A DNA stretch of 64,000 bases, taken from contig NZ_CP094974.1 in assembly GCF_022869805.1 (NCBI RefSeq), positions 4,278,001 to 4,342,000 on the forward strand, read 5' to 3'. The stretch's first letter is position 1, and the number at the start of each line of letters is the position of its first letter. The notes below the pieces were generated by a model. The model searched no databases, was not told where the DNA came from, and saw only the letters and a list, made by a program, of their open reading frames with translations. The stretch comes from Halosolutus halophilus (lineage in GTDB: Archaea > Halobacteriota > Halobacteria > Halobacteriales > Natrialbaceae). A program made the position numbers and the translations under genes. Of this stretch, positions 54,877 through 58,915 are shown piece by piece.

Positions 54877-56592
54877 TCAGTTCTCGAACCGGGCCTGGAC
54901 GAACGGCTGGACGTCGTCGATGTCGCTCAGCCGGGAGTCGGACAGCAGGACGGCCTCCGTCTCGTCGAGTGGAACCGAGAGACTGATCTCCTTGGTTCGA
55001 CCGTACCGGCCCTTCGAGACGACGACCGCGTTCACGATCCCCAGCATGTCGAGTTCGCTGATGAGGTCCGTCACCCGCCGCTGGGTCAGTACGTCGGCGT
55101 CGATCTCCTCGCACAGGCGCTTGTAGATGTTGAACACCTCGCCCGTGTTGATGCTGTGGACGCCGTTCTTCTCGAGGAGGATGATCGCGAAGAGGACGAG
55201 TTTGCTCTGTGTCGGGAGCGTGCGGACGACCTCGACGACACGATCGAGTTCGATCTTGTCCTGCGCCTGACGGACGTGTTCTTCGACGATAGTCTCCGTC
55301 TGTGCACGCTCGGCGAGTTCGCCCGCGGTCCGGAGCAGATCGAGGGCGCGGCGAGCGTCCCCGTGTTCCTGCGCAGCGAAGGCAGCACACAGTGGAATCA
55401 CGTCGTCCGAGAGTGCGCCCTGCTTGAACGCGACGTCCGATCGGTGCTGGAGAATGTCCCGGAGCTGGTTCGCGTCGTACGGCGGGAAGACGATCTCCTC
55501 CTCGCCGAGCGAGGATTTGACGCGGGGGTCGAGGAAATCCGTGAACTTCAGGTCGTTGCTGATCCCGATGATCGAAACCCGGGAGTTCTCGAGTTCGGAG
55601 TTCATCCGCGAGAGGTTATAGAGCGTATCGTCGCCGCTCTTCTCGACGAGTTTGTCGATCTCGTCGAGCATGATCACGACTACTCGCTCGTCGTAATCGA
55701 CGGCGTCGAAGAAGACGCTGTAGACCCGATCGGTCGGCCAGCCGGTCATCGGGACCTCCTCGAACGAGTCCCGATCGGCTTCGAGTTCGTCGATCCGCCC
55801 CTCGAGTTCCGCACGCGAAGTAAACGGCGTCGAGGCGAGCGGGTGGTCCGGTGGGAATTCGCCATCGCTGGCTTCGGCGTCGACGATCGACGACCCCCCT
55901 GTTTCGACTGGAGAGTCGCCAGACACGGCGTCGGTATCGGTTCCAGTTGAAACCAGATCGCTGGGGTCGTTCGTATCCGATTCGACCGGTTCCTCCGACG
56001 CGACGTCCGCGAAGAGATCGGACTGATCGTCTGCCGATCGCACAGGAGACGCGTCCTCGTACTCGTCGAGGTCAGCACGCACCGATTCGAGCGTCTCGAT
56101 CCGCTCGTCGATGCGCGCTTCGTTTTTTTCGATGAACTTGTTGGCCAGCTGTGCGAGGACCCGATACTGGGTATCGGTCACCTCGCAGTTGATGTACTCG
56201 ACGTCACACGGGACGCTGTACTTCTTGGAGGTGCTCTCGAGTTCTTTGCTGACGAACTTTGCACTCGCGGTCTTTCCGGTTCCGGTTTTCCCGTAGATGA
56301 GGATGTTCGACGGCGTCTCGCCCCGGAGCGCGGCGACGAGGATCGTCGCCATCTTGTTGATCTGATCGCTCCGGTGAGGGAGTTCGTGTGGCGTATATGA
56401 CGGACGGAGAACTTCCTTGTTCTCGAAGATCGGTTCCCCGCTGAGAAGGTCGTCGAACAGCCCCTGGTTCGACTCGTCCTCGGTAATGTCGGAACTCCCG
56501 AAGTCCGTCGAGAACCCGGCCGTCCGCTCGCCCTCGACGGTTACGTCGTCAACGTCTACGTCGTTCCTCGTGGTTTCAGTATCGTCTGACAT
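54877..56592 (-). CDS. orc1: Orc1/Cdc6 replication initiator
   Basis: 571 residues; AAA+ initiator that binds origin recognition boxes. N-terminal region, then Walker A IYGKTGTGKTASAKF, Walker B VVIMLDEIDKLV and sensor 1 SIIGISNDLKF; the C-terminal winged helix (about 480-570: LFAIILLEKNGVHSINTGEV). An acidic Ser/Thr-rich insertion of about 100 residues (about 173-275) splits the AAA+ domain; it is longer than in most archaeal Orc1 proteins (usual length about 400-450) and contains the ORB-derived VSTG and SPVETGGS peptides. The adjacent 1.7-kb intergenic region is the origin. ATG at 56592 lies just downstream of another ORB-like site. Confidence 0.95.
   Translation of the reverse strand: MSDDTETTRNDVDVDDVTVEGERTAGFSTDFGSSDITEDESNQGLFDDLLSGEPIFENKEVLRPSYTPHELPHRSDQINKMATILVAALRGETPSNILIYGKTGTGKTASAKFVSKELESTSKKYSVPCDVEYINCEVTDTQYRVLAQLANKFIEKNEARIDERIETLESVRADLDEYEDASPVRSADDQSDLFADVASEEPVESDTNDPSDLVSTGTDTDAVSGDSPVETGGSSIVDAEASDGEFPPDHPLASTPFTSRAELEGRIDELEADRDSFEEVPMTGWPTDRVYSVFFDAVDYDERVVVIMLDEIDKLVEKSGDDTLYNLSRMNSELENSRVSIIGISNDLKFTDFLDPRVKSSLGEEEIVFPPYDANQLRDILQHRSDVAFKQGALSDDVIPLCAAFAAQEHGDARRALDLLRTAGELAERAQTETIVEEHVRQAQDKIELDRVVEVVRTLPTQSKLVLFAIILLEKNGVHSINTGEVFNIYKRLCEEIDADVLTQRRVTDLISELDMLGIVNAVVVSKGRYGRTKEISLSVPLDETEAVLLSDSRLSDIDDVQPFVQARFEN
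55894..55956. repeat. Inverted pair of ORB-like sequences inside orc1
   Basis: Left arm 55894-55913 (C-run followed by TGTTTCGACTGGAG) and right arm 55941-55956 (TTCCAGTTGAAACCAG) are inverted relative to each other and 27 bases apart. They encode VSTG and SPVETGGS in the Orc1 insertion, matching the linker peptide of DP1. Confidence 0.78.
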
Positions 56593-56626: not shown

Positions 56627-57411
56627 TGCGGACCCCGGATACAGGAATATCGGGACGTAGATGGCCACTTGAGGCATATCTACTATTCCGCGTCCCCGGC
56701 CCGAGTCCAGTTGATGCAAACGAAACAGTGGAAGACCGTAGTATTAAATTCTTCCATTCAGTTCAACGTGTCGACGTCATCGTCAGTCGTGATCGATCCG
56801 TACCGGGCCCCAGTTCGACGACGATGACGACCACGGGACCGACGAGGAACTCACCGACCTCGGCAGGGGATCGCACGGAGGTCCGTTTCGGGTCGACGAT
56901 TCCGTCCGCCGTTTCGTTACTCCCGCCTTCGAATATCAGTCTGACATCGATACTCGTGTTCCAACATCGCGACGGTCGTGCCCTGATCATCGTGACGAAT
57001 TCGTTCAGCGATAGGGGAATGTGAACGAAACAGATACGGAGTTGAACAGACTGGATGCTCGATCGGAGACTGTGTAACCGACGTGGAGCCACAGGAGTCC
57101 ATCTCAGTCTGGGCATCGATCGAGCTGGGGCGTCGATCGAGCCGACGAGAATTTCACGACTGCCGACGACTGGGGCCACCGCGATACAGAAGTGGTGTAT
57201 CGTTCGGGAGACCTGTGGGAAAAGAGTTCTCGACCTGTCTCACGGCGAGACGACCGATCGGATGGTGAGGAGGAACCGATCGAGTGGAGAAGGGAGGCCG
57301 GTCGGAGGGAAAGAAGTGACGAAGAAGACGTACGACGAAAAAGACGCACTGATAAGCCACGGCAATGCTAGTGTTGTTCATTCTAGTATCCTAATACAAC
57401 GTGTCACCTAG

Positions 57412-57440
57412 CCCCCCACCCCTTCGTTTCAGGTGGAACG
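57412..57440 (-). other. Origin recognition box with G-string (left, inverted)
   Basis: Reads, on the - strand, GTTCCACCTGAAACGAAGGG followed by a GTGGGGGG run. Archaeal ORBs are of the form TTCCAxTGGAAACGAAxGGGG, and haloarchaeal ones carry an extended G-string; both are visible. The G-string points left, away from the AT-rich region. Confidence 0.8.
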
Positions 57441-57457
57441 CTCCGAAGGAGGGGTGG
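57417..57457. repeat. Inverted repeat CCACCCCTTCG / CGAAGGAGGGGTGG at the left ORB
   Basis: Arms at about 57417-57427 and 57444-57457 can pair over the ORB core (one 3-base bulge). It may be an ORB partly duplicated in inverse orientation. Confidence 0.6.
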
Positions 57458-57470
57458 TGGGGGGAGGGGA

Positions 57471-57620
57471 TCTAGAACGGGAAGCTTTATGATGGTAGAC
57501 CAGAAACAGCATCCGCAATCCTAGCAAAAACAAATATTTACTAGGAGAGTGGTGGTTTATTGCTAGATTCTACTAGATCTACTGTCTTCCAGCCGCTTCT
57601 GTTACTAGATCCTGCTCTTC
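57471..57620. other. AT-rich duplex-unwinding region with dense CTAG sites
   Basis: The most AT-rich stretch of the origin (CAAAAACAAATATTTACTAG and neighbours) lies between the two inverted ORBs. CTAG occurs at 57472, 57521, 57541, 57563, 57573 and 57605 inside it, and at 57368, 57383 and 57408 to the left. Confidence 0.7.
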
Positions 57621-57732
57621 ACCGCGATTCTCCCCGTAGCGGGTCTGGCGAACGGACTCGAGCCGAAACGAAGGGTGTCCTACTCGTCCCGGCCACGCAG
57701 AACCGCTCGTCGGGAGGGGTCCACTCGACTCT

Positions 57733-57760
57733 CTCCAGTTGAAACGAAGGGGTGGGGGTG
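57733..57760 (+). other. Origin recognition box with G-string (right)
   Basis: CTCCAGTTGAAACGAAGGGG followed by TGGGGGTG; inverse in orientation to the box at 57412-57440. The pair flanks the AT-rich region with G-strings pointing outward, the arrangement known from haloarchaeal oriC1. Confidence 0.82.
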
Positions 57761-58090
57761 TTCTGATCCGCAGTGGTCGACCCGGATCGATCGACCCCTG
57801 TATCATTCATCATGGGGATCGTTCACCACGGCACCGTACTCGGTACAGCGAATCATCCACTCGGGCAATTACAAGAGAGTCTGATCGCCGGGATCGCGTG
57901 GCTCCTGCAACGTGCGTTCTCGGATCGATTCCCCGCCGAAAGCGTTTCTGGAACCCCTCGAAGGTCACCGTTCTCGAGTCTCCCGGTGACTCACGATCCG
58001 TGCTCACCCCGACGACCGCATTCCTCGCGTCCAGCGATCGGTTCGTTCTGTCGCGATAGCCGAGGTTCAGTGCGCGTGGCCTGGAATCCG

Positions 58091-58276: not shown

Positions 58277-58915
58277 ATGGGATTGTTCACAGAACTCAAA
58301 GATAGTATCTCTCGGGTGACGGAGCGCCTGTTCTCCGAACAGGAACCGAAACGAATCGGCATCTATGGACCGCCAAATGCCGGCAAAACGACGCTCGCGA
58401 ACCGCATCGCACGCGACTGGACAGGCGACGCGATCGGGACGGAAAGTCGCGTGCCACACGAAACCCGGCGCGCACGTCGGAAGGAGGGCATCGAGATCGA
58501 ACGGGACGGCAAGACGGTGACGATCGACATCGTCGACACGCCGGGTGTGACGACGAAAGTCGACTACGAGGAGTTCATGGACGACATGGAGGAGGACGAC
58601 GCCATCCGCCGATCGCGCGAGGCCACCGAGGGTGTCGCCGAGGCGATGCACTGGCTGCGCGAGGACGTCGATGGCGTCATCTACGTCCTGGATAGCGCGG
58701 TGGATCCGATCACCCAGGTCAACACGATGCTCATCGGGATCATCGAATCCCGCGATCTGCCGGTCCTCATCTTCGCGAACAAGATCGACCTCGACGAGTC
58801 GAGCGTCAAGCGGATCGAGGACGCGTTCCCGCAGCACACGACCGTCCCGCTCTCCGCGAAGGAGGGCGACAACATGGACGAAGTGTACGACAGCATCGCG
58901 GAGTACTTCGGGTGA
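58277..58915 (+). CDS. oapA: Origin-associated Era-like GTP-binding protein OapA
   Basis: 212-residue small GTPase. G1 GIYGPPNAGKTTLANRIARD, switch region and G3 IDIVDTPGVTTKVDY, G4 FANKIDLDES and G5 VPLSAKEGDN are in order. ATG at 58277 (MGLFTELKDSISRVTERLFS) precedes the G domain by a short helix; a start at 58220 would add sequence outside the family. In haloarchaea this gene is next to oriC1 and named OapA (origin-associated) or annotated as Era-like. It is the first gene of a likely oapABC operon (6-base gap, then a 1-base overlap). Molecular role in replication is not established. Confidence 0.85.
   Translation: MGLFTELKDSISRVTERLFSEQEPKRIGIYGPPNAGKTTLANRIARDWTGDAIGTESRVPHETRRARRKEGIEIERDGKTVTIDIVDTPGVTTKVDYEEFMDDMEEDDAIRRSREATEGVAEAMHWLREDVDGVIYVLDSAVDPITQVNTMLIGIIESRDLPVLIFANKIDLDESSVKRIEDAFPQHTTVPLSAKEGDNMDEVYDSIAEYFG

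Follow-up and report, generated by a model that had tools for sequence, protein, structure and literature searches.

Why are nine copies of CTAG crowded into 241 bases at the replication origin oriC1 of Halosolutus halophilus, when the DNA around them avoids this tetranucleotide? The locus lies in a stretch of 64,000 bases which was analysed at its full length (the window). An exact search finds CTAG at positions 57368, 57383, 57408, 57472, 57521, 57541, 57563, 57573, and 57605, and every coordinate in the original prediction proved to be correct. Its by-eye count of "a dozen or so" copies elsewhere and its claim that CTAG is generally rare are also borne out: the window holds 22 copies in total, 13 of them outside the cluster, compared to 79 ± 8 in dinucleotide-preserving shuffles. 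CTAG is under general avoidance in the window, a trend which the cluster opposes.

In a 464-kb sample of the 5.06-Mb genome to which the window belongs, including some stretches picked for their CTAG clusters, the density of CTAG is 0.37 per kb. More than six CTAG were found in no other 241-bp window of this sample. An equally high density in random AT-rich DNA, which the original prediction had named as evidence against itself, was not encountered: windows with 35-40% GC in this sample contain at most two CTAG each, so AT-richness alone is not the source of the cluster. When the whole 5.06-Mb genome was scanned for a tight pattern (three CTAG with gaps of at most 30 bp), four places were found, namely oriC1, two intergenic regions of the ordinary kind, and DNA located about 0.8 kb upstream of another orc1/cdc6 gene.

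Small non-origin clusters of three to five CTAG occur in intergenic DNA away from any Orc1 gene at C1:1256760-1256980 (L105), 2951479 (L112), and 3441653 (L114), one of which is located upstream of an apparent acetyl-CoA synthetase gene. A 33-bp repeat with CTAG at each end, CTAGAATTCCCGACATAGAGGCAATATTACTAG (or a one-base variant), was seen at C1:847912, 873606, 885531, 1096412, 1920679, and 3710877 and is probably part of a mobile element. An Rfam search of four stretches of this genome with CTAG clusters returned no RNA.

The oriC1 locus and its CTAG array

By its sequence features, the locus is recognised as a canonical haloarchaeal oriC1, with an orc1/cdc6 gene beside inverted ORBs that carry G-strings and an AT-rich unwinding region, as described for haloarchaea in PMC3528665. 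In the part of that publication considered here, CTAG is not mentioned, whereas oriC1 of the window has a CTAG array. The original identification as oriC1 is supported by the adjoining orc1/cdc6 gene and by the inverted ORB pair with G-string (25 nt, 92% complementary), between which the GC content falls to its minimum of 0.42. The features are listed in Table 1.

Six of the CTAG sites, from 57472 onward, are located between the inverted ORBs, with spacings of 49, 20, 22, 10, and 32 bp. The other three are found on the orc1 side, left of the first ORB. Placement of the cluster in the unwinding region was thus right for six sites and not for the remaining three. The TTTAT/CCG element is kept across the class, including genera which lack the CTAG methyltransferase (MTase) discussed below. 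Judged by its sequence, it is possibly a promoter into the unwinding region and CTAG array, or an origin element that has not been recognised as such.

Table 1. Features of the oriC1 locus (positions in the window)
Feature	Position	Strand	Basis
orc1/cdc6 initiator gene of oriC1	54877..56592	-	NCBIfam NF001625 652 bits (cut-off 501), TIGR02928 473 bits
Nine-site CTAG cluster	57368..57608	.	Exact search
ORB with G-string, inverted	57412..57439	-	Inverted repeat I1; core kept in 46/46 aligned sequences
G-rich element between left ORB and first core CTAG	57449..57470	+	Sequence; conserved G columns
Core array, six CTAG between inverted ORBs (unwinding region)	57472..57608	.	Family alignment and spacing table
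TATA-like TTTAT, conserved CCG block about 25 nt on	57486..57517	+	TTTA and CCG nearly or fully invariant, 43 Natrialbaceae
Weaker ORB-like copy	57657..57676
ORB with G-string, direct	57734..57762	+	Inverted repeat I1, direct repeat D3, alignment
Era-like small GTPase gene, conserved, opposite side of oriC1	58280..58915	+	NCBIfam small_GTP 62.6 bits

Conservation among relatives and the CTAG methyltransferase

Using as anchor the Era-like GTPase gene, which is present in all 174 genomes of the class that were searched, 80 oriC1 loci of relatives were fetched. Word enrichment was computed for 46 Natrialbaceae sequences (the window and 45 relatives), comparing 136 strand-collapsed tetramers between the orc1-GTPase intergenic region and its flanks. 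CTAG is the top enriched tetramer, 19-fold over the flanks, followed by TTAA (6-fold). At least four CTAG within 300 bp are found at oriC1 in all 44 Natrialbaceae loci from genomes that encode the MTase. A lack of conservation in relatives, also named beforehand as evidence against the prediction, was not observed either: within the Natrialbaceae, conservation extends to individual positions. In 41 of 44 unwinding regions, two CTAG separated by 10 bp are kept together with a third one that precedes them by 20-22 bp, and most loci have a further CTAG about 42 bp upstream and another about 41 bp downstream of the first site of the pair. Two sites are invariant, or nearly so, among 43 sequences. 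The information content is 1.59 bits for CTAG columns of the alignment and 0.77 bits for other inner columns (p = 4e-9); the second strongly conserved element is TTTAT with its CCG block. Of the three sites to the left of the first ORB, 57408 has a counterpart 11 bp away from the ORB in four relatives; for 57368 and 57383, no recurrence at fixed positions was seen among the tabulated relatives. The locus from a Natrinema pallidum strain (L033) has nine CTAG sites; m4C methylation of CTAG has been measured in another strain of this species (PMC12160562).

The spacing of CTAG is coherent at 10.25 bp in Natrialbaceae. Such coherence is seen neither in family f3 nor in the other families when pooled; phasing is therefore a trait of the Natrialbaceae, and helical phasing as a general rule was rejected. 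In three Natronococcus loci (L046, L047, and L050), the unwinding region appears flipped relative to the ORBs (CCTAGTAAATA, with the TATA/CCGTA block in reverse complement), which looks as if recombination had occurred between the inverted ORBs.

The genome encodes a homologue of a CTAG methyltransferase, P0003 (1909939-1910994), with the amino-MTase motifs SPPY and DPFWGTG. Its sequence identity with the MTase from plasmid pFZ1 is 48% over 93%; the plasmid enzyme adjoins a restriction endonuclease (REase) of the MjaI family, and we take it to be M.MthZI, a CTAG enzyme. Given this homology, P0003 is predicted to be specific for CTAG. An REase of the MjaI family was not found in the genome, and none was recognised among the neighbours of P0003, which thus appears to be an orphan. 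A homologue of the kind of enzyme that the original idea calls for, an orphan CTAG MTase, is present.

Of 174 well-assembled Halobacteria genomes, 152 have the MTase, and the remaining 22 are all members of family f4. The final comparison was based on Orc1-anchored regions. In genomes without the MTase, the oriC1 unwinding region contains 0.41 CTAG on average (observed/expected, O/E, 0.45; 22 genomes), compared to 3.8 in genomes with the MTase (O/E 3.6; 117 genomes), at similar AT content. None of the 22 genomes without the enzyme reaches three CTAG in its unwinding region. By group, O/E amounts to 4.9 for Natrialbaceae and to 3.5 for six further families with the MTase; it is 1.6 in f4 and f6 taken together, and 0.45 in genomes lacking the enzyme. 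Within f4, the difference between members with and without MTase has p = 0.0007 when genomes are compared and p = 0.016 when genera are compared, values which do not derive from a tree, and the losses, all in f4, may represent few independent events. A first comparison, which took the sequence preceding the GTPase gene and included loci without adjacent Orc1 (most of g22), had led to the same overall conclusion.

The link between enzyme and cluster is one-way: presence of the MTase is not sufficient for a cluster. Despite the MTase, the cluster is weak or absent in many f4 and f6 genomes; the average is 0.2 CTAG per unwinding region in five g27 genomes with the enzyme, and sites are also few in Halorussus (g29, f6). 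Going by published patterns, g27 might be Haloferax and g22 Halorubrum. Within g22, no association between MTase and cluster was found in the Orc1-anchored regions. Five g22 genomes (G191, G233, G250, G188, and G152) have the MTase and zero CTAG in the oriC1 unwinding region, in contrast to most families with the enzyme; they have possibly acquired it later.

A second origin with CTAG clusters

The tight pattern upstream of the second orc1/cdc6 gene belongs to a group of six CTAG; the array at the second origin is located mostly 0.6-0.9 kb upstream of the gene. The Orc1 paralogue encoded there shows 43% sequence identity to Orc1 of oriC1 over the matched part, and oriC1-type ORBs were not found at this second locus in the genome. 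At least three CTAG within 300 bp are seen in 21 of the 27 family members with enough upstream sequence. These clusters reach up to 8-9 CTAG per 100 bp, with sites often 5-7 bp and in all 4-8 bp apart, and the coding sequence of the second-origin Orc1 has 0.13 CTAG per kb. Plasmid-borne Orc origins, of which ten were sampled, have only 2-5 CTAG in 300 bp.

The second-origin clusters that were displayed have no obvious shared layout. It thus seems that the word CTAG itself, rather than a fixed sequence, is under selection. That one tetramer should be selected at unrelated origins points to a factor which reads CTAG itself.

Possible roles of the arrays and comparison with known systems

Non-random clusters at two unrelated origins, their conservation, the MTase gene, and the lack of clusters in genomes without this gene are directly established. 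The cluster is real and has been selected for, and a tie to the CTAG methyltransferase is most likely. As to its role, we see about an even chance that selected targets of the orphan m4C CTAG MTase make up the array, both in the oriC1 unwinding region and at the second origin, and that its methylation state times initiation. The sites would be fully methylated before the origin fires, and copying of the origin would leave all of them hemimethylated together. Until its methylation is restored, a dense array in the hemimethylated or unmethylated state might alter melting or the loading of the initiator, and it would then serve as a timer or licence, much as GATC/Dam does at oriC of E. coli. We hypothesise both that the array sites are methylated in the window organism and that their methylation state affects initiation.

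Genomes that encode the MTase and have no cluster count against this mechanism, as do the clusters of three to five CTAG at a few non-origin sites and observations on Haloferax volcanii. That species can grow without origins. Without its CTAG MTase it had no growth defect, and a high CTAG density was reported for only one of its origins, oriC2 (Ouellette et al., 2018; PMC5867850).

A different reading is that CTAG forms the core of a motif (about TTACTAGA) to which a sequence-specific protein, for instance a nucleoid protein or regulator, binds at oriC1 independent of methylation. The flanks in Natrialbaceae are biased, with TTA before and A after CTAG, the spacings near multiples of 10.25 bp are as for proteins on one face of the helix, and the two (nearly) invariant sites fit as well. 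However, phasing and flank bias were not seen in other families, the sites at the second origin are too close together for separate protein footprints, and the association with the MTase is left unexplained, so we consider a protein-binding motif unlikely. The position of six sites between the ORBs, where the unwinding region is AT-rich, would also suit a structural role, in which kinkable or readily melted CTAG steps help to open the region and methylation is incidental; CTAG has been tied to kinks in repressor-bound DNA (PMC6471742). Yet the unwinding regions of genomes without the MTase, of g27, and of Halorussus are just as rich in AT and contain few CTAG or none, so CTAG is not required for melting, and TTAA, TATA, and AATT are below expectation in the unwinding regions of Natrialbaceae. 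This makes a structural role improbable.

It is quite improbable that the sites control transcription at the origin, through the orc1/cdc6 promoter or the TATA-like element, and not replication directly. In Haloferax lucertense, CTAG is enriched in the 75 bp that precede transcription starts (PMC11001535), the array has a TATA-like element next to it, and one non-origin cluster precedes the apparent acetyl-CoA synthetase gene; however, the array is about 0.8-1.0 kb away from the start of orc1, the array at the second origin is similarly remote from its gene, and the densest clusters found are those at origins. Relaxed avoidance in non-coding AT-rich DNA, which would make the array functionless, agrees with the genome-wide avoidance of CTAG and its somewhat higher frequency in lower-GC windows. 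Site-level conservation speaks against it, and base composition or relaxed avoidance as the cause was rejected by the 4.9-fold excess over base-composition expectation, the enrichment over the flanks, and the counts in low-GC windows; the chance that it applies is practically negligible.

We thus return to the reading that the arrays act through methylation. It had been proposed with the remark that no role of CTAG in archaeal origins is described, which is wrong: haloarchaeal CTAG clusters upstream of orc1/cdc6, correlated with an orphan MTase, were reported by Blow et al. (2016; PMC4752239, Fig 6D), who suggested a putative role in replication, and the matter was revisited for H. volcanii (PMC5867850). 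Fullmer et al. (2019; PMC6471742) did not settle what CTAG methylation is for. The idea of origin methylation is therefore sound but not new. In the main text of PMC4752239 the motif is printed as CATG and in the figure legend as CTAG; our sequence data support CTAG, which is the enriched word, while CATG is depleted here (O/E 0.09).

The present arrays share with the clusters of Blow et al. (2016) the non-coding location upstream of orc1/cdc6 at orthologous origin locations, occurrence at more than one origin per genome, an orphan m4C MTase encoded in the genome, and the correlation across genomes. New are the site positions relative to the ORBs, the base-level conservation and phasing in Natrialbaceae, the free layout at an independent second origin, the quantified one-way dependence on the enzyme, and the lineages which have the MTase and no cluster. 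Direct testable predictions follow from the map of sites, from the independent second origin, and from the genera without MTase. They bear on how archaea prevent double firing of origins, which is poorly understood, and on the purpose of the conserved haloarchaeal CTAG MTase.

We know of no SeqA-like reader or hemimethylation-binding protein for CTAG arrays. With the GATC/Dam/SeqA system at E. coli oriC, the arrays have in common many copies of a MTase target in the origin, an orphan MTase, and a density that is conserved among relatives; they differ in using m4C CTAG and an archaeal initiator. We put forward, tentatively, that dense m4C CTAG arrays, kept up by an orphan methyltransferase, constitute an archaeal methylation timer which governs re-initiation at two unrelated chromosomal origins, has evolved independently of bacterial Dam/SeqA, and is lost in lineages together with the enzyme. 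If the arrays do act via methylation, this would be an archaeal epigenetic control of origins, convergent with bacterial Dam/SeqA.
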